Of a DNA stretch of 64,000 nucleotides, positions 3,501 to 59,070 are shown piece by piece. The notes below the pieces were generated by a model, which was given only the letters and a program-made list of their open reading frames with translations, was not told the DNA's origin and searched no databases. This DNA comes from Patiria pectinifera (taxonomy: Eukaryota > Echinodermata > Asteroidea > Valvatida > Asterinidae), in assembly GCA_029964075.1 (NCBI GenBank), contig CM057136.1, forward strand, positions 8,184,001-8,248,000, read 5' to 3'. Both the position numbers and the translations under genes were made by a program. Within the stretch, counting starts at the first letter, position 1. Each line of letters starts with the position of its first letter.

Positions 3501-6500
3501 GTCAGACTAATTAACTTGAGAGCGGCGTAAACAGTGCGGAGGGGGCGGGGCCGCAACCCCCCTCCGTATACATTTTGGCTCCTATCGTCGCAATGCATTC
3601 ATTAAATTCTGCCAAGTTTCTCTGACAGTTGTTCTGATGTCTTGCGGTTATTTTGGCACCCAGTTTATGAAAATAGGGCATACCTTCGTAAATTTTTTTT
3701 TCAAATACCAAAACAAGTACAGGCTTAAATGTTAACTTTTGCATTACATGGTGCATGTATGACGTACATCGAAAGGCGCATGAGAGTGCCGACTCTAGAT
3801 AACTATGACAACAAAACATTTTAACAGGTTGAAATTTGAATTGAAACTTTACAGATGTTGATAGATGTTCCGGAGTCGTTTCATTAGAGATATCAGCTTC
3901 TGCTTAAAATAATGGGTAATTACGCGAAAGCACAGGTAGTAGGAGCTGGCGAATGAACGAAAATTATAAAGAAGACATCAGTTTTTCGGTTTGAAACTAA
4001 AGATTTAATTGAATCTGATGGGGCAGTGGGTGGGCTGACAGAGCTGTTTAGGTCAAAAATCGTAAAAAGTTGTGCACTAAAGCATAAAACTTCGTACGTT
4101 GGTTTTTCATACAATGAATGTAATGATCGGATGTGAGAAAATGTTTCATATTTGCCCTCTGGTGACTTACGAGAGGTCAATTAACGTTGCACACCCTGTT
4201 TATTGATATTTAAAGATGTATTATTCAAACTCTACTTTTCCAGAACCAATATCTAATCTTACGATATGAATTCTTACCAGGGAAAGTTCATAGCTGGTGA
4301 AGTTATGGGCGTCGCCAGGATTTTTTTCTAGAGGGTACAAGGCACATTCTCCCCCCCCCCCAAAAAATCCCTGTACTCTTCCAGCGTATTTTCGATTTAT
4401 CATTTTGAAGGTGGACAGGGACATTTGCCCCCCCCCCCCCTTACCAAGCCATTAAATTACCAGTAATGACTTCGCACCTTGAATTTTCTTTCCCTTTTCC
4501 CTTTTTTCCCTCTCCTTTTTTGGGGGGTTGCTTTTCCAGAGGGGGGGGGAGCAAGCGCCCCTAGCCCCTCCTCGTGACGCCCATGTGAGAGGTCAGCGGT
4601 CTTTGTATACCCGTTTTCCACCATTAATTTAAAGTGCCAAATTTACATGCCCCGAGTCTAAATAATGAAACAAATTAATTTTGACTATCGTTCTACAGGA
4701 TCTCATGAATTCAAACATAAAGACGATTTTTGTCATTTAGAGCGCAATTAAACAAATTAAGAAAAACCCATACAGGTTGGTTGAGAATCTAAAAAATAAA
4801 ATATTAGTACATTGCACATACCTGTAGATTTGTCTGCCTCAAATCTTTGAAAAAATTTAAAAAGCTGCTCACAGAGAATACTTATTTAGATAACTGGTAA
4901 AAGTTAACACGGGCTGTTTTGTTTTTAATCAAAATGCGAGTAATAATCTTGCACAGATTTGTGGTGGTTCCAATTATAAAAGGATTATTAAAAAGCTGTT
5001 CACAGAGCAAAAGATTCTACTTGTTCAGCAAGCTGATGAAATAGGGTATTGGGCTGTTTTGGAATCGTGATGTCCTGGTGCGTAAGTGGGGAAAATGATG
5101 TGCATTACGCAGGTTGCGGTCGTGAGACTCCCGTCTGGTAGGAGGGAGAAGATCATTTGTACGTTTTGAATTGGCAAGTCCTTCGGCAAAGCTGAGACAA
5201 TGATTCTCCCTCCTATCAGCAACAGATTCAAGCCCGCAGAACTGCATTGCATCCGCATTCGAAGTATAGCGCTGTGCCAAAATGGTTCTGCATGCACGTT
5301 TTTGTAGGTGCTCCAGAGTCATCTTCTGGGCAGCAGTAATTGAGGAAGACCAAGTAACATCAGCATATTCAACAGCAGGCCTCACATAACTTGTATAAAT
5401 TGATATGAGCTCATCATCATTAAATCCAAACCTCAAGCAGGCGGAGCATATACAGTTTTTGATTGGCTTTCCTAGAAATTTCATTGATATTTTTCTCCCA
5501 TCGGAGGTCACTCTGTAGCCAGACTCCTCGGACCTTTGCCTCAGATACAAAGTTCAGAGAGACTCCCGCAATGCTCAACTCGGCATGTGGTGGGGGTTTA
5601 GTTTTGTAACATGTTTGGATGGCTTGACACTTGGAGGGATTCACGCTGAGTTTGTTGGAGTTGGTCCATTCAGTAAATTCATCAAGAACTACCTGCAGCC
5701 CACTAGGTTGGAAACAGGAACGATTTTCAGCAAGTGTCAAGTCATCCACATATTTCCAGCACTTAATCTTTTCACCCAGATCATGAGCAGCGTCGTTAAT
5801 AACGACCTGGAAACCAATGGGGCCGAGTTTAGTTCCTTGAGGGAGAGCTCCACTGAGAACCTCGTACTCTGAGAGTGCTTGGTTGTATCGTACACATCGG
5901 GCGCGGTTGCTGACAAAGTCACACAACCAAGGGACGATGGATCTACGGACTCTCAAGCGGATACATTTCTCAATGAGGATGGTATGATCAATCATATCGA
6001 ACGCTTTGGAGAAATCCGTCAGAACCACCGTCCCAATGTTGCCGACCTTGTCAGCACCTTGATGGAGTGAATGGAGGAGACTAACTAAATAATGGGAGGT
6101 CGAAATGCCTTTGACATTGCCAAATTGCTGAGGGTCAATTTTGTCTTGAATATCATCCAAAACTCAGTTTGTTACAAAACCCTCCCCTATCTTTGCAAAG
6201 CAGTCAGTCAAAGAAACTGGCCTGAGTTTATCAGCCGTGGGGGGCTTCGTTTCCGGTATTGGCACTACTATGACCTTTTTCATTGCTTAGGCACCACGCC
6301 CTCTTTGTACGAGCAATTCAACACATCAGTTAAAGGTGAACTCAACTCATAGGCAAATTCTTTAACAAGCTTGGGAGAAATTCCATCGGGACCAGTTGTA
6401 TAACAGCTGTTATAAAGCTCAACTTGGTGTTTTGTCGAAGTGTATTAAACATTGATTTTCTTGGAATGTTTCATGCAATACAGACAAATATAAACACACA

Positions 6501-9500
6501 CAATATTACGACATACGAAAAGTTTTTACAAACGGTCCTCTTTCTTTCAGCTTTTGAAAATGATATATGCCTTGTTCGTCTGTTCGAAAAGTTTCTTGCT
6601 GTACTTCTTGCATTAGTAACGGGGGCGGGGGGGGGGGGCATGGGGGATGAGGGTCACTACGTACCCCAATCCTACAGCAAATGAGTGTCTGGTTTTTCTG
6701 TTCCCCCGGCTGTGAGATGGTCAAAATAACCCGGCCCCTTTCGGGTTAAGGACCCCGATTTGGGGGCATTCTAGATGTTCTGTGGTGCGATCTGAGAAAT
6801 TGTTTGACCACTTTGACCATCTTTTTTTGAGGAGAAGGTGGTGGTGTACGCAGTGCCTGTCTTTTTTGCGACGTCACTTAAACAATCACAAACATGTTTT
6901 TTTTGCGGGGGGGGGGGAGGGGGTGCCCCCCCCCTGGATCCACCCTTGGACAGAGGTCTCTGATCGTTTTTTTTTTATCCATGTCTTGACGCGACAAACA
7001 TGAATTACCAAAGACCCGACAGAGAGAGCACCCACTGATTGGTCAAAGTCTAGAGGTGAAGGTGCGCTTGTCTTGACTAATTAATCAGCGAATCTGTTCA
7101 TATGTAATAGACCATATAGACTACCCCTCCGTTGTACAGTTTTGTATTTATGGTCCATTCTCAGTGTACCTAGGTAACGCAGACGGCGAGGTTAGGTCGT
7201 GTAATTATTACGGGCGTCCACCCAAGCCTGTGCCAGGTGAGCGCTGGATGAAGACGGCACTGCGAGAGGCGTACCATCGATGCAATCAGCAGAATTACAT
7301 TGGCCCTACAGGTAAATCATGATAGACTCTGTGCATGAAAAGTAGGTGGCGTTTCGTCACCACACACACCACAAGGTGACTGACTTACTTAGTAACTGAC
7401 TGACTGACTGACTCCCCGAGTGAGTGACTGATGACAGATTGGGTGACTGACTGAGTGAGTGAGTGACTGACAGACTGGATGACTGAGTGAGTGAGTGAGT
7501 GAGTGAGTGACTGACTGACAGACGTGGTGACTGACTGAGTAACTGACTGAGTGAGTGAGTAACTGGCATTCTGGGTGGGTGAGTGAGTGGCTGACAGACT
7601 GGGTGGCTGACTGAGTGAGTGAGTGGCTGGCTGACTGACTGACTGACATACTGGGTGACAGACTGTGTGACTGACTGGGTGACAGACTGGGTGGCTGACT
7701 GGGTGACAGACTGGGTGGCTGACTGAGAGACTGTCTAACTGAGTGAGTGGCTGAGAGACTGGGTGACAGACTGTGTGACTGACTCGGTGACTAGCTGGGT
7801 AACTGGCGAAGAGAGTGAGCATAAACTGAGCGACTGCCAATTACTGACCGACCGACTCCCCGACTGACTGAATGACTCCCCGACTGACTGACTCCCCAGA
7901 CTGAATGAATGAATGAATGAATGAATGAACGATCGAGTGACGGACCGACCGACTGATGGACTGACTGACTGACCTGTGATTTTCTTTTTTTAACCTCCAT
8001 GACTTTGTAACAGGTTGCTGCAATGGGAAGCCACTCGGTATGAAGGATGGCTCTATCCCAGTTAGTAGCATCACGGAATTGAGGCATCGCAACAATAATT
8101 GGAATTGGAAGGCAGCCTACGCGCGACTAGGTATGGCATTTTCTTAAGGAGTTGAACATTGGTTTAATGGACCACCTGCATAGAGCCACTTATTGAGGCT
8201 TAATATGGAAATCTATGCAATGGAATGGAAGTACAAGCTCTCATCTCTCTCTTACCACACACATTCCCCAATTTATTTATCCTATTATTATAATCGGGTA
8301 ATAGCACATTTGTAAGGGTTTCATCGTCGCCCTACAACTTGAAAAAACAATCACTCTTTTTAGTTCTCACGCAACGAAAGAGAACCCCACAGTAAAATGC
8401 AAGTTTTCTTATTGTCTATGAAGCCGATTTTCTCACACCTTAAATGGACATGCAAATGGTACAAGAGCTGTGAACATATCGAACACTCACTTGCAAAATT
8501 AAGCCCTTTTCCAAATGTATCATTTGTGTTATTTTTGTTGTTCATAGCTGCATCACTTCAAATCTGAGGTACTAGGTAAACCATTGGTGGATTCCGATTG
8601 AATGGGCCTACAAACAATATAACGACCATTAAAACTCCTTGATACGATCATGCTTTTATATGTTTTGAAATATCAGTCTTGTTTTTTAAGTACAGGTATA
8701 TTATTCAAAGGTATTTGTATAAACAAATAAACAAAATAAATTGATCCTTTATTCAGATGGAAGCAGCTGCTGGGGGTTTAAGCCGTCCAATGGGTACAGC
8801 TGGATACAGGTCGACCTCGGTGCCATGTACAGTGTTTCCAGTCTGATCACTAAAGGTCATTGGGGTCACTGGGTGCTTGAATATCAAGTCTCATACAGCT
8901 TCGATGGGGATAATTGGCGTAATGTGACCGAGGCAAGCGGGACAACCAAGACATCGCCTGAACAGGTGGAAGCCCCTAAGAAGGTATTTCAGAGCTAGTT
9001 TTTATTTCACAATGTCACAGCTGAGAACCGTTGCGGTGGGGTAGTCCTCAACGTTTGCATGTATGTTCTTTACAAGGACCAGATTCGAACCAGCCAATCG
9101 ATCCCGTTAGCTCGGTGGTCGAGTGGTAAGACATCTGCACTAGAAGGCAGGAGGTCGTGGGTTCGAGTCCAACCCGAGTGATTTTTTTCCCAAACATTCA
9201 CTCGGGAGGTAACACAATGAGTATACAGTGTTTATACGTCGGTGACGGGCAAAACCTAATTTGCTTTACAAAGTTGTTCTGTCAATCTTGAAAAGCGCAT
9301 TCCTATCGGTTCACAAAAAAGTTGAACATTTATTCGAGACCTTAAATATTCAGCGGGAGAGACACCCCCTGCCTAAAAACATATGTCTTTGAAATTATAA
9401 TTCCTTGTTATCGTCGACAGGCTACATTTACAAATGTCCATTTAATATTTGTTTGCAGTTCGCAGGAAACATCAACGGGAGGTCCCATGTAACCACTCAG

Positions 9501-18740: not shown

Positions 18741-21479
18741 GAAAAAGACTTCTTCTAACACAATAACTTCAGCCTGTCATTGTATGTTACTGCAATCTAC
18801 AGGTAGACTCCGTTCCTAATACGGGACGTGCCCCATACATATGCCCACTAACTTCATTTCAGTTCATTAAAATGCCAACAATAGCAAACGTTCTGAACGA
18901 GCTTTCTAAATGTAACATAACGCGTTCTTATTAAAGAAAATGTAGCGCGGAAATTACAGTGGACATAACTTCATAATGGCTTCAGTGCCATGCGCCGGTT
19001 ATTCAACGTTTAATTCAGCGCGCCGTAATTGCCGCAGATACTGACCTTTTCAGAAATGCATTTATTCTTGCGACCTACTTCGGTATTAGTTCACAATCAC
19101 CGCAAGATTGCAGGTGGTTTGTGGCGAGGAAGATGTTCCTAAAACAGTATCTATGTATAGCTGATATACATTGTAGAATGTATTTTTGGAATTGCAGCGT
19201 TTTGAGTGTTCTGTTGTGTCGCCCGTTATTCTTGGTATGAAACACTGTCAGATTATCTCTAGGGGTATTCCGTTTCGAGGAGTAATGTTCGGTTTCATGT
19301 ACCGGTATGTTGCGGAGACTGAGTGCTTCGATTCGGGCTGTCTTTTAAGAGCATGTTTCCTCGTCTGGCCATTTCCAGGGAACACACACCCACAATTACG
19401 GATGAGTGTGTGGGCTGCTGAGCTGCTCACGTGCGCTACGACTACTAACTCTCTATAATTTCCCCAGCGTGAAACCAATTTGGAAGAGTCACTTCAGTCG
19501 AAGCTTTGGTGAAAACGCGATCTATTTGAATGAATGTATTTACCTGTAAATTGTCGTGTTATGTTCAAAATTTCATTTAGTCTGAGTATCAGCCGTTGTT
19601 TAACGAAGCCCGCTCCGCATTCAACGTCTGATGTAATGTGAGCTTGCAACTATTGTATATAGTCGGAGTCGACTTTAGAAACTGTGCCGTCGTTTCAGTC
19701 AGAAATGTGGTCTGAGCTGTTGATTGGTCAATTTAGCCGCAATGTTTTTGGAATACAACAACGGGTTTCAGCCGGATGGAGTGACTTTTCACTTGAATGG
19801 AGGTAGAGAGAGAATGTTTAGTATTTGGCAATAAGAAGTATTTATTCAACCCAGTGTAGTATCCTACCACCCATTTTACACTGAATTATAGGCTTATGTT
19901 TTTTTTGCCCAACTCTTACCTCTCGCGACGCCCATATGGCAGTAATATTGCCTGGACAAAATCTGTGTGCAAAGGCCCATGTAATTTGCAATGTAATTTC
20001 CTAAATGCGGACCTTAAAAAATGGACCTTTGTGTCCCATTTAGCCTCATTGCCAGTTTCAAAGGTATTTGGGTGCTTTTTGATTTGCATGCTGACGCGAA
20101 TTTCCATATTCATGAGCAAAAATGTGATGTCATTTCAGGCAGAAACATCAACGTTACAACTATTCTGCACCAAAAGTTGCCAGAAGTTTGGATATCGTTG
20201 TTGTGTCAGTATATGGCAGTCAGCCAGTGAGCAAACTTTTCCCACAATTGTTAACAATGAGCAAATATTTGGGTTCACAATATTAACAGAAACCCCCTAA
20301 AACTGAATAGTGTCTTCCTGAAACGACATCACAGCAACAGCGCCCTCATTTCCTAGGAAAAATACGTGGCACTTTAAAAAAGAAATGTTTAAAGAATTGC
20401 ATTTTTTTAATAAAACTAACACAAAAGGGATATCAAAATACTTTTCATTCATTTAAGAGGAGTAGAAAGTTGCACGGTTTCAGACGGGGGAGGGGAAGGC
20501 ACCCCCTGCAGTGTCCCTATACCCCGTATATAAGTACACTCTTTGGACTTCTGTTACCTAACACATTCCTCTGAATATCTCAAAGGGATTCCTGAGATTT
20601 CACGAACACAATGACCAACACACGGACCATGCGTCGCATATCTTGCTTCAGCTGATAAATCCGTTTCAACGCGACCAGTGCATGCATACATCTCAACTGA
20701 ATACAAAAAAAACTTTGCTTTAATCCATTCCAATTGACAAACAGAACAAAGAAAAGAGAATGTAACCAAAATTCACCATAATTACTACCGGCATGAGTTC
20801 GTGGCTATGACAAGTATATTTTATATGTCCAGGTCCCCTTAGGCAGACTTCACAAACGAAAAAACGACGGCCAAAATTGAGCTAGCAATCTTCCTTTAGA
20901 ACGGTAATAACATTCCTCCTGAGAAAGTACACAGTACACCGAGACGACTCCCTCAGGGTCGACTCGTTTCCCTTCCAATCGAGATAATTGAAATCTGAAA
21001 TATGCTGTTCTTGGAAAGCTTAAGAGCAGCACGATCACGTCCGCATTTTCAAATACAGATACGGCATATTGTTCAGCTGTACTGCTCGTGTAATTTAAGA
21101 GTCACTAGCGCGGTGTGGAGTCATATACTTATGTTTACTTCGACCTCAATTTGCATGTTGAAACCAAGTGGGCGTGGTAAACCGTGGGGAAGCAATTTTG
21201 CACATTTTTCATTATCAACGTTATGTTTTGCGTAATAGTGATACGTCTTGGAGTTTTCATAGTGATAATGTTTTAATATTTAACTATTCAAAGTTTGAAA
21301 GAAACAAATTTACCAAAAACGCAAACAACAAAACAAATAAATAATTGTTGTCAGGTGCCAACCGTGGTTTCAGGGGACAATAAAATCGTAGGACCTGTAT
21401 ACACTGGTTACTTCTCCATTAACCCTTTCATTTTCCGCATACTAGACCTTTTACAAAAACAAAAAACCCTGACCCACAT
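18741..21479. other. No gene recognised; relic of repeat E
   Basis: The only assignable piece is 19700-19790, which shares GATTGGTCAATTTAGCCGC and TTTTTGGAATACAACAAC with the repeat at 11580-11635. The rest shows no exon, RNA gene or transposon boundary. Confidence 0.4.
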
Positions 21480-21700
21480 ACATCAGACAGGCATCAGACA
21501 GACAGAAAGACATCGTAGGATCTTTCAGTAAATTTACATTTGAATGGTTATATTTCCAAAACGCGCTAAACGCCATTATGTAACCCTTTTTTTAATCCCA
21601 CCCTCCACTGGCCGCCCAAAATCAGTTTTGACAGGTTTAATATAGTTAAATACAACATAATAAATAAAAAAAACCGAAAAGTGAATTAAAAAAAAACATC
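21480..21700. repeat. Left part of tandemly duplicated insertion target
   Basis: This 221-bp segment (starting CATCAGACAGGCATCAGACA, ending AACATC) is repeated at 26706-26932. It is the left half of a roughly 306-bp unit interrupted by the palindromic element; the right half is at 26622-26705. Confidence 0.9.
21695..21700. other. Target site duplication, left (AACATC)
   Basis: AACATC immediately precedes the AG-starting terminus at 21701. It is repeated directly after the right terminus at 26622-26627. It occurs once in the uninterrupted duplicate at 26927-26932, confirming a 6-bp target duplication. Confidence 0.9.
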
Positions 21701-22175
21701 AGTAGTGATGCCCGTATGTATAGTCGGTTTTACGTCATCACGACCACCCTCTCGGCCAATCAGAACGCTGCATTTAGCCTCATTAGCATAAACCATGGCA
21801 AGTTTGAGGAGCCAGCTGGACTGATCGATATGTGTAGGAGAGGTGTTTATTTGCGTAAGCGAATTTAAAACCAGCGATAACAATAGACAATTTTTATGAA
21901 ATCGTATAATAAAATTATTTGTTCGTTTAATGAAATATACGAAACTATTTTATTGCCTAATTGAAGAATTTAATCTTTCAGTTAAATTTTAGCAACATAT
22001 TACCGAGCACAGCGAAAATCGTTCAGAATGGAACAACCCGTAAGATTTGTTGTGAATGACTCATCCCGGTAGTCTTTTGTGCAATCGGAAGGACAGTTTG
22101 TACGCGTACAGACATGCAAGAGTTTCTTCCGGTTGAGTTTTATCGCTGTATTCGAAGTTGTGGTAAACAAACACT

Positions 22176-22565
22176 CACCGTTGAACAGCGTACATGCATA
22201 GGGACAAAATACATAACATAAATTTACGTATAGTACAGTAAAAAGTCAAATTTACATCTGAATTGAAGAGATTTCTCAAGCCGCATATCATACTCGTGCC
22301 TGTTTCCACTCTATCATAATAGCCTTTGTACTCGAATGGGGAATCCAGTTACGTCATAGTTCTGACTCATCGAATGATGACAAACAACCGGACAAGTCCG
22401 GTCATGTGCATTGTCCGCGGTGTTTTTAAAAATCTCCCCGTATGGAATCGTTGTTTGTGGCGCTGGCCGCATTGGCATTAAGAGAACGTTAGATACATGT
22501 ATATACCGCGCTGTACGTCCATGCTGAGCTTGAGATTTAGCGTTACCGAGGAACAATTTGAGCAT
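22176..22565 (-). pseudogene. Frameshifted copy of the right-arm 129-residue ORF
   Basis: The mirror image of 25758-26147. An extra G in the run at about 22337-22340 shifts the frame, so the open frame ends at 22314 after 83 codons. The rest of the sequence still matches the right arm. Confidence 0.35.
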
Positions 22566-22861
22566 GGTATTGAATTATGAAGAATCTGACGTTGACGACT
22601 CAGTCATGGGAAGCTGATAAACGGATTATCGTCACCGTTATATAATCGCTTCAATAACAACCTGCATTGTGAACATATCCAAGCCATGAATGGATTCAGG
22701 GGCCATCACACCATTATAATGTCATTGGACTTAATTGCTGGTCAGTTTTGTGCACGTGGAGCGCTGTACTGTTGATGAGGGATGACGTACGGGGCCAGGG
22801 TAGTCAACAGATAAAGCAAATAATAAGTAATTGGGATTAAGATAAATAAAAGGAAGACAAT

Positions 22862-23071
22862 TCACACTGTATTTTCAAGGATTATTTGAATTTTTTTTAT
22901 TATCATTATCATGCATACAACTTTATTTACGTGCACTAATATTATGCAGTCATCATAAATTGCCCGTTTTATAATTTCAGACCTGAATCTAATAATATTG
23001 TTTTTTGTACCTGACATATACCGGTTTACAATACACTGTCTTTTTAAAGCCACATCGTATATAGAACCCAC
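22862..23071 (-). CDS. Small 69-residue ORF, left arm (doubtful)
   Basis: An ATG-started frame of 69 codons whose translation is identical to the mirror copy at 25252-25461. Identity follows from the near-identity of the arms and is not evidence of selection. The end is rich in isoleucine and lysine. It is not recognised and may be non-coding. Confidence 0.15.
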   Translation of the reverse strand: MGSIYDVALKRQCIVNRYMSGTKNNIIRFRSEIIKRAIYDDCIILVHVNKVVCMIMIIKKIQIILENTV

Positions 23072-23314
23072 ACAAGTTTAAATCTCCATGCATATGGGCA
23101 TGCTCTTCTTCTAAGTTCAAGCGTCAGCGGACCCAATGTAACATATTTTTAATACTAGTATGAACTTATTCGTCCATGGTAAAAAAAAAAAATAGCCATA
23201 AGGAATTACTGTATAAGAGTGATAAGGGGCGACTATTTCAAATATTATTTTTTTCCTATTAGACACTGCTAGATTATTTTTTAAAATGAGTAATCTTTTT
23301 TAAACTACTAGTCT

Positions 23315-23998
23315 TTAATCATCACTGTCTTCATCGTTTTCTTCATCCTCATCTTGTTGGAACAGTCCGTCAAAAGTGTTACGGTATCTAGGCATAATTC
23401 TGTTCAGAGCTGTGTTCAATTTCATGCCCGTAATCAATTTTCGTTCGATATCTTCCACAATTTCTTGATGAGTGCCACTATCTTTCAGATATAGGTAACT
23501 TGACAAAAAATCCTTGTATTTGTTGAAAAAGATTCGCTTGACTGCCCAAAGGGTCTTCCTGTTGGCCTTTTCCTTGGCCTGATCTTTACTCATATCCTCG
23601 TTAATGTACTTTTCATATTTGTCACTCCACATCTCCTGGGTGGCTTCTATGGACTCTTTCAACCAGTCTCGATATGCGGTGTTGTCTTCCAAATCAGAAC
23701 TAGACTCGTCTTCATCAGATAATTCGTCATCTTCCACCTCCGTCACGGACTCCGAATCATCGTCTTCAAGATCTTCGTCTTCATCATACGTAGATACAGT
23801 TTCATAGTTTTCCATATCAGGATCTTCAAATCTACGGCTTATAGAATCAGGTTCAGAATGATCCTCCTCAACTTCATCTGTTTCGGAATCATCAACAACA
23901 TGTACATTTTCTGTATGCCTCTGTAGGTTATATCTCCGTCCGAAGCTTTTGTCACAAATGTGACAAGCATAAGGTTTGACTGCAGAAATGACATTCAT
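23315..23998 (-). CDS. C2H2 zinc-finger/acidic protein of the palindromic element
   Basis: A 227-residue intact ORF on the minus strand. Residues 10-33 form a single C2H2 zinc finger (C12, C15, H28, H33; core YACHICDKSFGRRYNLQRH). Residues about 36-105 are extremely acidic and serine-rich. Residues about 106-213 look helical and charged, with WSDKYEKYINEDMSKDQAKEK and a later block with LNRIMPRYRNTFDGLF. The C terminus is again acidic (DEDEENDEDSDD). I do not recognise a named family. A single finger with acidic and helical parts suggests a nucleic-acid-associated protein, which is inference. The 5' side lies in the AP-1-motif-rich repeat spacer, a possible promoter. It is the only apparently intact larger gene of the element. 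Confidence 0.75.
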   Translation of the reverse strand: MNVISAVKPYACHICDKSFGRRYNLQRHTENVHVVDDSETDEVEEDHSEPDSISRRFEDPDMENYETVSTYDEDEDLEDDDSESVTEVEDDELSDEDESSSDLEDNTAYRDWLKESIEATQEMWSDKYEKYINEDMSKDQAKEKANRKTLWAVKRIFFNKYKDFLSSYLYLKDSGTHQEIVEDIERKLITGMKLNTALNRIMPRYRNTFDGLFQQDEDEENDEDSDD

Positions 23999-24396
23999 GT
24001 TGCAGCTTTGAAGGTTAAGCTCCGAATGACTTATGAGTCATTGCTCATCTGCTCAATTCATTGCTCATTTACTCGTGAGTAACTGCTTTCTGCTCATCTA
24101 CTCATTTCCATTGCTCATCTGCTCAATTCATTGCTCACTTACTCGTGAGTCACTGCTCATCTACTCATGAGTCACTGCTCATCTGCTCATCTACTCAGTT
24201 TCACTGCTCATTGACTCGTGAGTCACTGCTCATCTACTCATGAGTCACTGCTCATCTGCTCATCTACTCAGTTTCACTGCTCATCGACTCATGAGTAGAT
24301 GAGCAGTGACTCATGAGTAAGTGAGCAATGAAACTGAGTAGATGAGCAGATGAGCAGTGACTCATGAGTAGATGAGCAGTGACTCACGAGTCAATG
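23999..24396. repeat. Central palindromic short-repeat spacer with AP-1-type motifs
   Basis: Built from units such as ACTGCTCATCTACTCATGAG in one orientation up to about 24291 and in the opposite orientation afterwards; the inner symmetry point is the ACTCATGAGT at 24287-24296. TGAGTCA or TGACTCA occurs eight times (24034, 24146, 24168, 24219, 24241, 24307, 24358, 24380). At 24396/24397 the array joins directly to the truncated right-arm ORF. Confidence 0.9.
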
Positions 24397-25009
24397 AGGC
24401 ATACAGAAAATGTACATGTTGTTGATGATTCTGAAACAGATGAAGTTGAGGAGGATCATTCTGAACCTGATTCTAAAAGCCGTAGATTTGAAGATCCTGA
24501 TATGGAAAACTATGAAACTGTATCTACGTATGATGAAGACGAAGATCTTGAAGACGATGATTCGGAGTCCGTGACGGAGGTGGAAGATGACGAATTATCT
24601 GATGAAGACGAGTCTAGTTCTGATTTGGAAGACAACACCGCATATCGAGACTGGTTGAAAGAGTCCATAGAAGCCACCCAGGAGATCATAGATGTGGAGT
24701 GACAAATATGAAAAGTACATTAACGAGGATATGAGTAAAGATCAGGCCAAGGAAAAGGCCAACAGGAAGACCCTTTGGGCAGTCAAGCGAATCTTTTTCA
24801 ACAAATACAAGGATTTTTTGTCAAGTTACCTATATCTGAAAGATAGTGGCACTCATCAAGAAATTGTGGAAGATATCGAACGAAAATTGATTACGGGCAT
24901 GAAATTGAACACAGCTCTGAACAGAATTATGCCTAGATACCGTAACACTTTTGACGGACTGTTCCAACAAGATGAGGATGAAGAAAACGATGAAGACAGT
25001 GATGATTAA
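24379..25009 (+). pseudogene. Truncated, frameshifted right-arm copy of the zinc-finger/acidic gene
   Basis: The copy starts at the residue equivalent to R27 of the left protein: the array sequence supplies an ATG and five codons, then RHTENVH. Both zinc-binding cysteines are lost. At about 24686 a 7-bp insertion (CATAGAT, next to a similar GAGAT) breaks the frame, giving open pieces 24379-24702 and 24692-25009. Downstream the sequence matches the left copy almost exactly. It cannot make a functional zinc finger. Confidence 0.9.
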
Positions 25010-25251
25010 AGACTAGTAGTTTAAAAACGATTAATCATTTTAAAAAATAATCTAGAAGTTTATAACAGCAAAGGAATAATATTTGAAATAGTCGCCCCTT
25101 ATCACTCTTATACAGTAATTCCTTATGGCTATTTTTTTTTTTACCATGGACGAATAAGTTCATACTAGTATTAAAAATATGTTACATTGGGTCCGCTGAC
25201 GCTTGAACTTAGAAGAAGAGCATGCCCATATGCATGGAGATTTAAACTTGT

Positions 25252-25461
25252 GTGGGTTCTATATACGATGTGGCTTTAAAAAGACAGTGTATTGTAAACC
25301 GGTATATGTCAGGTACAAAAAACAATATTATTAGATTCAGGTCTGAAATTATAAAACGGGCAATTTATGATGACTGCATAATATTAGTGCACGTAAATAA
25401 AGTTGTATGCATGATAATGATAATAAAAAAAATTCAAATAATCCTTGAAAATACAGTGTGA
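25252..25461 (+). CDS. Small 69-residue ORF, right arm (doubtful)
   Basis: The mirror copy of 22862-23071 with identical translation. No domain is recognised, and it may be chance open sequence in an AT-rich arm. Confidence 0.15.
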   Translation: MGSIYDVALKRQCIVNRYMSGTKNNIIRFRSEIIKRAIYDDCIILVHVNKVVCMIMIIKKIQIILENTV

Positions 25462-25757
25462 ATTGTCTTCCTTTTATTTATCTTAATCCCAATTACTTAT
25501 TATTTGCTTTATCTGTTGACTACCCTGGCCCCGTACGTCATCCCTCATCAACAGTACAGCGCTCCACGTGCACAAAACTGACCAGCAATTAAGTCCAATG
25601 ACATTATAATGGTGTGATGGCCCCTGAATCCATTCATGGCTTGGATATGTTCACAATGCAGGTTGTTATTGAAGCGATTATATAACGGTGACGATAATCC
25701 GTTTATCAGCTTCCCATGACTGAGTCGTCAACGTCAGATTCTTCATAATTCAATACA

Positions 25758-26147
25758 ATGCTCAAATTGTTCCTCGGTAACGCTAAATCTCAAGCTCAGC
25801 ATGGACGTACAGCGCGGTATATACATGTATCTAACGTTCTCTTAATGCCAATGCGGCCAGCGCCACAAACAACGATTCCATACGGGGAGATTTTTAAAAA
25901 CACCGCGGACAATGCACATGACCGGACTTGTCCGGTTGTTTGTCATCATTCGATGAGTCAGAACTATGACGTAACTGGATTCCCATTCGAGTACAAAGGC
26001 TATTATGATAGAGTGGAAACAGGCACGAGTATGATATGCGGCTTGAGAAATCTCTTCAATTCAGATGTAAATTTGACTTTTTACTGTACTATACGTAAAT
26101 TTATGTTATGTATTTTGTCCCTATGCATGTACGCTGTTCAACGGTGA
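25758..26147 (+). CDS. 129-residue ORF in right arm, unknown function
   Basis: An open frame of 129 codons reading outward, with motifs such as PQTTIPYGEIFKN and VCHHSMSQNYDVTGFP. The left-arm copy is broken by a single-base insertion. A donor-like GGTGAGT lies at 26144-26150, so it could be an exon. No family is recognised and no homolog was checked. Confidence 0.3.
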   Translation: MLKLFLGNAKSQAQHGRTARYIHVSNVLLMPMRPAPQTTIPYGEIFKNTADNAHDRTCPVVCHHSMSQNYDVTGFPFEYKGYYDRVETGTSMICGLRNLFNSDVNLTFYCTIRKFMLCILSLCMYAVQR

Positions 26148-26621
26148 GTGTTTGTTTACCACAACTTCGAATACAGCGATAAAACTCAACCGGAAGAAAC
26201 TCTTGCATGTCTGTACGCGTACAAACTGTCCTTCCGATTGCACAAAAGACTTCCGGGATGAGTCATTCACAACAAATCTTACGGGTTGTTCCATTCTGAA
26301 CGATTTTCGCTGTGCTCGGTAATATGTTGCTAAAATTTAACTGAAAGATTAAATTCTTCAATTAGGCAATAAAATAGTTTCGTATATTTCATTAAACGAA
26401 CAAATAATTTTATTATACGATTTCATAAAAATTGTCTATTGTTATCGCTGGTTTTAAATTCGCTTACGCAAATAAACACCTCTCCTACACATATCGATCA
26501 GTCCAGCTGGCTCCTCAAACTTGCCATGGTTTATGCTAATGAGGCTAAATGCAGCGTTCTGATTGGCCGAGAGGGTGGTCGTGATGACGTAAAACCGACT
26601 ATACAGACGGGCATCACTACT

Positions 26622-26627
26622 AACATC
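26622..26627. other. Target site duplication, right (AACATC)
   Basis: The exact duplicate of 21695-21700, adjoining the right terminus of the palindromic element. Confidence 0.9.
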
Positions 26628-27012
26628 ATGATGTTTATTCTTTAAAGTTACATAATGGTAGTCATTTGTCACGTTTTTCATACGGATATATCTCGTCTTA
26701 GAAAAACATCAGACAGGCATCAGACAGACAGAAAGACATCGTAGGATCTTTCAGTAAATTTACATTTGAATGGTTATATTTCCAAAACGCGCTAAACGCC
26801 ATTATGTAACCCTTTTTTTAATCCCACCCTCCACTGGCCGCCCAAAATCAGTTTTGACAGGTTTAATATAGTTAAATACAACATAATAAATAAAAAAAAA
26901 AACCCGAAAAGTGAATTTAAAAAACAAACATCATGATGTTTATTCTTTAAAGTTACATAATGGTTGTCATTTGTCACGTTTTTCATACGGATATATCTCG
27001 TCTTAGAAAAAC
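26622..27012. repeat. Tandem duplicate of the insertion target, including intact empty site
   Basis: 26622-26705 and 26927-27012 are direct copies (sharing GTTTATTCTTTAAAGTTACA and TTTTTCATACGGATATATC). 26706-26926 repeats 21480-21694. The order is therefore left half, element, right half, then a complete second unit with single AACATC at 26927-26932. Confidence 0.9.
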
Positions 27013-27372
27013 TCTTAGTTTATTATATATTTCTTTTTTAAATTGCTAAATTTCTACATCGTGCAGCCGTAGACTTAGCCTCGTTGCTTTCTTCACAACA
27101 CATTTTTGGCAATTATTTCCAGGAATACACAAGTTATTCCTGTTTGAATGAGACGTTGGAAAAGGGAAACAAATCAGCCAAAATCTTATTGTGGAATATT
27201 TAGTAAATTTGAATTGTTTGCAGTCCTATAACGAAAGGTTCTTCCAGGATAGACTGGCTCCCACCTCCCTTTCAGAATCGATAGTGTAGGTACATGCACC
27301 GAGAATCAGTCTATTTTCAGGGAGGATCTGTTCGTACTTAAAAGGAATACACAACATTTTGCAAACATCAAA

Positions 27373-27904
27373 AACAAAACCAGGGGCGGCGGAACCGGGG
27401 GTGGGGGGTGCTGGGGGGCGTTTGCCCCCCCCCCCAGATTTTCCCAAGTGCCCCTTTTGCGGCCATAAATGTGCCCCCTCGAGCATTAAAGTGTCCCCTC
27501 GAGTTAAACAACAATACCATTAAAGTATCTTACTATTTCTTAGAAGTAACCATTTCCCAATAATGGTATAGATATTTTTGATATAAACGAGGAATATGAA
27601 AACCAAGTCCCAAAACCCATACAATACGCCCTGAAAATGGGCACATAATGCATATTTAGCATATAATCATTGGTTTTGAAGAGCGCCCCCTATGTTGGAA
27701 GATGGTACCAGCCCCCCCCCATCCCCCAACACACACACACACACACACACACCCACACACACCCGGTCTGTGGGATTTTACGGAGGCCAAGTGTCCGGTG
27801 AAAAAAACGTGTCGACATTTCAGCACGGGTTTGCAAGTGCCCCTTTTTGGTGATCCCCCCCCCCCCCACAGTTTAAAACCCGTTCCGCCGCCGCTGAACA
27901 AAAC
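27373..27904. mobile_element. hAT-type MITE with exact 8-bp target duplication
   Basis: The body 27381-27896 (516 bp) has ends CAGGGGCGGCGGAAC and, in reverse, CAGCGGCGGCGGAAC (14 of 15 match). AACAAAAC flanks both sides (27373-27380, 27897-27904). The interior contains C runs and an AC microsatellite (27728-27760). No transposase is present. Confidence 0.88.
27728..27765. repeat. (AC)n microsatellite
   Basis: An uninterrupted ACACAC run with a short CCACACACAC extension, inside the hAT MITE. Confidence 0.95.
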
Positions 27905-58299: not shown

Positions 58300-59070
58300 C
58301 GACGTGGGGTTCTGGGCCCGCTTAAGGGGGCCCGAAAAAAAATGGATTCCAGATGCTCTGTGGTGTGATCTGAGGCAATTTTTTTACCACTTTCCTCCAT
58401 GCTTTAACTAATATTTTCTTGGCAAAAGATAATTATTTGAACATCGTTTTCGAGGTTAGAGTCGTTGAATCAGCTACCGGTATTCTGAGCTATAGGCGTG
58501 TGGTTAGGAGCCCGCTTAAGGGTCCCGAAAAAAAAAATGATTTTAGATGCTCTGTGGTGCGATCTGAGGCACTTTCTGACTACTTTCACCGATATATTTT
58601 TTAGCAAAAGATAATAACTGAAACATAATTTTCGAGGTTTTCTCAGCTAAAAGCATAGAGCTCGGGGCCCGCTGAAGGGCTTCAAAAATATTGGATTCTC
58701 AATGCTCTGTGGTGCAATCTGAGGCAATTTATGACCACTTTAACCAATAACTTTCTGAGCAAAAGATAACAATTAAAAATAATTGTTGAGGTTTTCTCAG
58801 CTAAAGGCGTAGGGTTCGGGGCCCGCTTAAGGGCCAAAAAATATTGGATTCTAAATGCTCTGTGGAGCAATCTGAGGCAATTTCTGACCACTTTAACCAA
58901 TAATTTTCTTAGCAAAAGATAACAATTAAAAAAAAATGTTGAGGTTTTCTCAGCTAAAGGCATAGGGTTAGGGGCCCGCTTAAGGGCCCCGAAAGTTTTT
59001 TGGTTCTAAATGCTCTGTGGTGCAATCTGAGGAAATTTCTGACCACTTTTATTTTCTAAGCAAACGATAC
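58300..59070 (+). repeat. ~155-bp tandem array derived from a hAT MITE
   Basis: Five copies of a unit marked by GGGCCCGCTTAAGGG and ATGCTCTGTGGTGCAATCTG begin at about 58356, 58550, 58705, 58858 and 59013 (spacings 194, 155, 153, 155). The same unit occurs once in the MITEs at 14152-14466 and 6725-6948, so an internal MITE segment has been amplified here. Confidence 0.85.

Follow-up and report, generated by a model that had tools for sequence, protein, structure and literature searches.

How a near-perfect palindrome of almost five kilobases comes to lie in an animal genome, and to what kind of mobile element it belongs, is the question raised by a locus of the sea star Patiria pectinifera. 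Multi-kilobase near-perfect palindromes are normally unstable. We analyzed a 64-kb stretch of DNA (the window, C8:8184001-8248000, within a 613.5-Mb assembly; positions without a contig are those of the window) that contains such a palindrome at 21701-26621. The element is quite probably a non-autonomous, palindromic, satellite-like derivative of the Polinton/Maverick transposons and a member of a multi-copy family of that architecture.

A 4.9-kb palindrome with a 6-bp target duplication

The element measures 4,921 bp. A BLAST comparison of its arms aligned positions 1-2221 with positions 1-2226 counted from the far end, over 2,228 columns at 98.97% identity, and four long ungapped inverted-repeat blocks recovered the same palindrome in a second comparison. 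The left arm (21701-23921, plus strand) carries the end AGTAGTGATGCCCG and the right arm (24396-26621, minus strand) the end CGGGCATCACTACT; AGTAGTGATGCCCG is read inward at both termini, and no third site occurs in the 64 kb at up to two mismatches. The centre between the arms (23922-24395) is mostly an inverted minisatellite, present in both orientations, with 22- and 73-bp units at about 24038-24395. As single-stranded DNA, 24030-24400 has a calculated fold of -133 kcal/mol versus a mean of -52 for shuffled sequences (z -19.2). Rfam gave no match over 21000-27500.

The hexamer AACATC abuts the element on each side (21695-21700 and 26622-26627). The host flank consists of two nearly identical tandem units of 305 bp, one of which is split by the element (21480-21700, plus strand, resuming at 26622-26707). 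The second unit (26706-27012, plus strand) represents an internal empty site with a single AACATC at 26927-26932, which fixes the target-site duplication (TSD) at exactly 6 bp. Because the element lies inside one unit and leaves the other undisturbed, its insertion postdates the tandem duplication. A preliminary description of this DNA had reported a 4.9-kb near-perfect palindrome with ≈2.2-kb inverted arms, AG...CT ends and an exact AACATC duplication, and had read it as a mobile element. The arm alignment bears out the first of these claims, the agreement of both termini, both flanks and the empty site confirms the second, and the 6-bp duplication together with the empty site in the adjoining tandem unit supports the third.

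Palindromic relatives across the genome

The arms hold one recognizable gene, which runs outward and encodes a protein with a C2H2 finger, an acidic stretch, and a conserved C-terminal tail (hereafter the finger/acidic gene). This protein has 155 matches in the host genome (best 150 of 555 candidates scored), and the matches merge into 142 copies; comparisons of gene copies by position use the 150 listed matches. Neighboring copies less than 6 kb apart form 30 pairs, of which 28, including that of the window, are divergent, one is convergent, and one is tandem. For comparison, no two members of a Pox_A32-type ATPase family (best 150 of 306 candidates, by eye) lie within 6 kb of each other. Matching AGTAGT...ACTACT ends enclose ten of the divergent open reading frame (ORF) pairs, nine of which are centred within 6 bp. 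In a symmetry test of seven two-ORF elements, again including the window, the midpoints of ends and genes were at most 5.5 bp apart in six and 43.5 bp apart in the C15 element; in the other three (C22:22502266, C19, and C233), compared by hand, they agree to within 5 bp. For elements known by coordinates alone, palindromy is taken from this symmetry of ORF pair and ends, not from reading the sequence or a TSD.

One relative, C12:8515050-8522402, was read whole. It is 7,353 bp long, with arms 99.3% alike end to end, AGTAGTGGTAGTGG ends, the TSD AATGCT, and two nucleotide-identical 245-aa ORFs. The preliminary description had suggested counting other palindromic copies, and the divergent gene pairs, the ten within matching ends, and the C12 element supply that count.

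The outer 300 bp of the window element match 37 places in the genome, the longest matches being on C13, C5, C7 (14.91 Mb), and C3. The C13 copy (C13:18416519) comprises the left arm and centre, at 99.4% of aligned bases, without the right end. The C5 relative is 3,034 bp long, with a terminal inverted repeat (TIR) of ≈553 bp and the TSD GTGGCC. A minisatellite occupies the matching central position in the window, C13, and C12 copies. The C13 copy lies within a repeat array without obvious loss of target sequence; it may represent a precursor, the remains of a deletion, or an integration that failed, and may also reflect one-ended integration of a hairpin-ended molecule.

Ends shared with polymerase-bearing elements

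Three end types recur in the genome, with no site in the control for any of them: the window's own (a-type; nine sites), that of the C12 element (b-type; 34 sites at up to three mismatches, 17 per strand), and a third, AGTAGTGAAGCCCGTCTAACCAGG (c-type; 41 sites at up to two mismatches). They form 31 closed pairs of less than 25 kb and leave 22 sites unpaired; eight of the pairs enclose a divergent ORF pair, four a single listed ORF, and five a gene for a family-B DNA polymerase (PolB). A looser pattern, with 54 sites versus 11 in its control, yielded six further pairs by eye. Two of these enclose a divergent ORF pair (C19:26274224-26281754 and C233:30764-38019), two enclose one ORF (C17:6231477-6239214 and C19:23928759-23933121), and two enclose PolB (C21:39705669-39722088, 16,420 bp, and C7:21267803-21280634, 12,832 bp). 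A 6-bp TSD is present in 11 of the 14 elements read at both ends, the window element included, in seven distinct sequences. The left end of C5b has a third AGT, which leaves the frame of its TSD, GTCAGT, ambiguous.

In all, seven elements with these ends contain PolB, and three of them are 16.4-16.5 kb long. The C17 element (C17:10981063-10992484, 11,422 bp; end AGTAGTGCACATCG, TSD GCGGTT) has 2.0-kb TIRs at 98.55% identity and a 981-aa PolB frame (DNA_pol_B_2, E 2.9e-44). Besides the C21 and C7 elements just listed, the others, known by coordinates, are of 16,484 bp on C16, 16,450 and 21,550 bp on C7, and 12,893 bp on C1. Each end type is found on both a palindrome and a PolB element: the a-type on the window palindrome and on PolB elements of C7 and C17, the b-type on palindromes and on the 16,484-bp C16 and 16,450-bp C7 elements, and the c-type on the palindrome C22:22502266-22508778 and the 12,893-bp C1 element.

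With the window element, the C7 and C17 PolB elements share the outer ≈500 bp alone (terminal ≈498 bp, 21701-22198, plus strand). Identity there is 78% for C17; for the locus at C7:14.91 Mb it is 97.2% of aligned bases, or 93.6% with gaps counted. Inward of the shared end, this C7 locus has an 872-aa frame (DNA_pol_B_2, E 1.8e-46) and, upstream of it, a frame with two fingers. The same terminal region includes a subterminal block (22051-22198, plus strand) 75% identical to the C12 palindrome; within the C12 block, the initial 69 bp are matched by C1, C14, C19, C20, and C5b as well, and by C17a from the fourth base on. Genome-wide, PolB has 59 matches (47 of 519 candidates scored). A tblastn search of phages with PolB returned distant polymerases alone, the best of them (E 1e-11, 24.9%) annotated as a protein-primed PolB. 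The adenoviral protease family PF00770 has four matches in the genome, two of them above the curated cut-off with E about 0.005. These two each have a PolB copy ≈3 kb away, one at C22:14.89 Mb and the other at C6:1.51 Mb, and protease-bearing Polintons therefore probably occur in this genome.

According to an account of vertebrate Mavericks (PMC8097293), the commonest signature is (AGT)2//(ACT)2 with a 6-bp duplication, and intact elements measure 12,723-24,620 bp (mean 16,862) with TIRs of 46-1,447 bp. The AGTAGTG/CACTACT ends of the window element fit that signature, its 6-bp TSD and terminal inverted repeats are those of a Polinton, and the three co-terminal PolB elements of 16.4-16.5 kb are close to the published mean. 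In contrast, the 2.2-kb TIRs exceed the range for intact vertebrate Mavericks, and the element is only 4.9 kb long, almost wholly palindromic, and furnished with a finger/acidic gene of its own in both arms. Its two frames of at least 110 aa are that gene and a 132-aa frame in the right arm (25749-26147) without a Pfam match; among them neither PolB nor, by Pfam, a retroviral-type integrase was recognized, and no capsid, ATPase, or protease was recognized in the 4.9 kb, which has one recognized gene. Since the family carries Polinton end sequences without known Polinton genes, it probably lives as a parasite of Polintons.

The finger/acidic gene is under selection

The left-arm copy of the gene (23315-23998, minus strand) is open and encodes 227 aa from its ATG, or 240 aa from stop to stop (to 24037). 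Its finger matches Pfam PF00096 (E 7e-6), and the C-terminal tail matches no family above the cut-off. The right-arm copy (24396-25009, plus strand) lacks most of the finger and is frameshifted by a 7-bp insertion at 24687-24693. Between the window and C12 ORFs, nonsynonymous divergence (dN) is 0.157 and synonymous divergence (dS) 0.437, for a dN/dS of 0.36, whereas the arms of the two elements align only in the subterminal block and around the ORF. The gene is under purifying selection; this ratio, with the rest of the arm unalignable, indicates that a functional protein was kept as the element spread.

Against the PolB elements read, the protein matches PolB-adjacent fingers weakly (at best 26 aa, 46%, E 0.001, on C17). 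A sequence search of the PDB gave C2H2 fingers alone among the best 60 of 122 matches, and PHROGs gave at most weak families of unassigned function (best E 0.005). Viral contigs in IMG/VR yielded no relatives with the finger protein, its tail, its alignment, PolB, the PolB alignment, or an 18-base end pattern. A spliced host gene, suggested by the splice-acceptor-like TTTCTGCAG before the finger codons, was considered and dropped: the reading frames of both C12 copies run uninterrupted from ATG through 245 aa.

Among the listed matches, a partial finger/acidic gene at C14:13504013 faces a PolB fragment at C14:13506268, 1.9 kb away. None of the searched-for ends was found at this locus, which is possibly a Polinton carrying the finger/acidic gene. 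A connection, drawn by eye, of the finger's helix residues with the CTC/GAG-rich minisatellite and with the corresponding residues of the second PolB finger is only an idea, and the likeness of the fingers is weak.

Contrary evidence and alternative explanations

Several observations weigh against a palindromic satellite of Polintons. No integrase was seen by eye or with Pfam in the scanned frames, which covered the C17 element whole and those on C7 and C1 in part but not every small frame. A genome search with PF00665 (best 150 of 1,962 candidates, mostly retroelements as judged by their long frames) placed none inside the C16, C21, and 16-kb C7 elements, and none of the ATPase-like matches (best 150 of 306) falls in these PolB elements. 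The second end of the C7:14.91-Mb element was not found, and the searched patterns gave no end pair around the two loci with protease and PolB. Three of the 14 elements read at both ends have no TSD (the 458-bp C22 element, C20, and C17a); C20 has an outer inverted repeat around it and a retroelement inside, and the left end of C17a is altered. Co-terminal PolB elements showed no finger gene (C17 whole, C7 and C1 in part, the 150 listed matches for the others). Finally, the 7-bp insertion of the right arm is common to C5 and absent from the left arm, so the arms are not simple copies, and their histories oppose simple, constant arm-to-arm copying in the window copy.

Those histories are mixed. 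The window arms share four to six changes without counterpart in C13 or C5 (22790-23141), and the right arm has its own cluster of nine differences in 47 bp (23250-23296 versus 25028-25074). Over the aligned arm, the left arm resembles C13 no less closely (99.4%) than its own right arm (98.9%, a count that includes centre columns). This mixed sharing with C13 and C5 shows that the arms differ in part of their history, through exchange with other copies or through conversion. C12 is a better case for arm-to-arm copying than the window copy.

The preliminary description had allowed that the element either integrated as a palindrome or became one afterward. A one-ended or long-TIR insertion that chromosomal gene conversion or inverted duplication later made palindromic would account for a right arm with traits of another copy, and C13, with its left arm and centre, could be a precursor. 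Such an origin is nonetheless unlikely: the coinciding midpoints of ends and genes at many loci would need the same accident repeatedly, and the central minisatellites lie at the matching place in the window, C13, and C12. The recurring layout thus favors a sequence already palindromic at insertion.

We consider it very unlikely that the element belongs to a different superfamily (Galileo/P, Ginger, or IS-type), as a foldback transposon moved by cut-and-paste, with merely Polinton-like ends. Galileo belongs to the P-element superfamily, and we know of no link between it and PolB elements. The window element does resemble foldback transposons such as Galileo and Tetris in its very long TIRs and internal repeats, long and internally repetitive TIRs being typical of foldback elements such as Galileo (PMC3573991). 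Ginger elements, however, are given in PMC2836005 as having TGTNR ends and a 4-bp TSD (5 bp in TDD-4 and TDD-5), unlike the ends and the 6-bp TSD found here, which fit Mavericks (PMC8097293). PolB elements moreover carry these ends; a P-type transposase was not searched for.

Even less probable is the fusion of two independent head-to-head insertions by recombination between their inner ends: the inner right arm does have a history unlike that of the left arm, but a single TSD pair surrounds the whole, no AGTAGTGATGCCCG stands at the centre, and the layout recurs at many loci. Least probable is an assembly artefact in which a missed adapter or collapsed repeat made a one-armed element palindromic. 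Long-read chemistry is known to produce spurious palindromes, but here the left and right flanks are unlike, the hexamer is duplicated exactly, an empty site adjoins, the arms differ by substitutions and indels, and the architecture recurs at many loci, of which C12, the other one with its flanks read, has a different TSD.

A palindromic Polinton derivative remains our preferred reading, and it revises the preliminary description. The Polinton/Maverick-type ends recognized there stand, given the (AGT)2//(ACT)2 signature, the 6-bp TSD, and the same ends on PolB elements, as does the non-autonomous form, with neither PolB nor integrase recognized in the element and its ends common to PolB elements. 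The expectation that full-length elements with PolB and integrase would share the termini holds for PolB, in the seven elements described; an integrase was not seen in the frames scanned or, inside the C16, C21, and 16-kb C7 elements, among the scored PF00665 candidates. To call the element a head-to-head fusion of one Polinton end would oversimplify, because the palindromes form a large family with a conserved, selected gene not seen in co-terminal PolB elements, and only the outer ≈500 bp are shared. That the form had not been described agrees with the titles and abstract openings listed in searches of open-access papers, none of which describes palindromic Polintons (Repbase and subscription papers lie outside this scope); a review (PMC6431247) has no occurrence of "palindrom".

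Proposed replication and known parallels

Replication of Polintons is believed to resemble that of adenoviruses, and virions may be formed; to our knowledge, no Polinton replication intermediate has been observed in animals. For the window family we infer a linear palindrome served by Polinton enzymes in trans, with snap-back. A transient linear palindromic DNA would be copied from its two identical ends by the protein-primed PolB of Polintons, acting in trans and jumping back on the AGT repeats at the element ends, and the Polinton integrase would insert the palindrome, also in trans. The palindrome would have arisen from a strand that bent back on itself within the central minisatellite and acted as its own primer, and would be maintained when a displaced single strand snaps back and one arm is copied onto the other. 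The finger/acidic product is predicted to bind element DNA and to regulate replication or expression. Taken as a whole, the model of obligatorily palindromic Polinton satellites, with two back-to-back DNA-binding genes, borrowed polymerase and integrase, snap-back upkeep of the arms, and at least three end types matching PolB partners, is put forward tentatively, as a possibility short of a likelihood.

Such forms have parallels. In deletion forms of yeast pGKL1 and in symmetric recombinants of adenovirus, one end of a protein-primed linear DNA is doubled head to head, which provides an origin at either terminus. These arise as by-products in the laboratory or on passage and do not form integrated families. 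In adeno-associated virus (AAV), the defective snap-back genomes are self-complementary subgenomes derived from one end, arranged head to head as dimers, and dependent on factors in trans for their replication (PMC8235507). The window family is likewise self-complementary and head to head, with help in trans inferred here; AAV, however, is a parvovirus whose subgenomic molecules are Rep-driven and packaged (PMC8235507), whereas the window family is integrated, spreading, and equipped with its own conserved gene. For Mavericks, the end repeats have been tied to jumping back in protein-primed replication (PMC8097293).

Integrated palindromes with Polinton ends are the expected trace of template switching in a protein-primed linear replicon, and because the palindromes described here match that trace, they would form a genomic record of Polinton replication. 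They suggest a layer of satellites that exploit Polintons and have a selected gene of their own, and they show that near-perfect palindromes of several kilobases are able to multiply and last in the genome of an animal. If the model is true, palindromic satellites would stand to Polintons as satellite or defective interfering genomes stand to viruses, and would have become fixed as a family of transposons.

Other observations

The insertion target of the window element, AACATCATGATGTT (26622-26635), is itself a 14-bp palindrome. Five c-type copies (C1:15804050, C14:12055602, C14:37768682, C14:37878991, and C19:27968461) have the TSD CACGTG and the same flank in common, with no listed gene copy, and three of them, on C1, C14, and C19, lie in the middle of a larger inverted repeat (actctgtgCACGTGcacagagt). 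With this shared TSD and flank, and three copies so placed, the five probably go back to a single insertion that was carried along in copying; what seems to have multiplied is an outer palindrome with a Polinton-type insertion inside it. The palindromic target in the window, together with CACGTG, suggests that palindromic targets may be preferred.

A 485-bp miniature inverted-repeat relative lies at C22:3041315-3041799, with AGTAGTGCC ends and the TSD TAGATC. The two copies at C4:1171863 and C4:1440526, ≈267 kb apart, have matching flanks in opposite orientation (24 bases compared) and represent an inverted segmental duplication or a duplicated assembly. The Pox_A32-type ATPase frame is mostly of ≈203 aa and open, and its 150 scored copies lie away from the PolB elements; it is read as a separate family, perhaps another single-gene mobile-element family.

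Elsewhere in the window, two overlapping frames at 5017-6163 (minus strand) resemble, by eye, a fragment of a non-LTR (long terminal repeat) reverse transcriptase. Large tandem arrays comprise a TGAC-based minisatellite at 7377-7973 and 3.7 copies of a 153-bp unit at 58479-59049.

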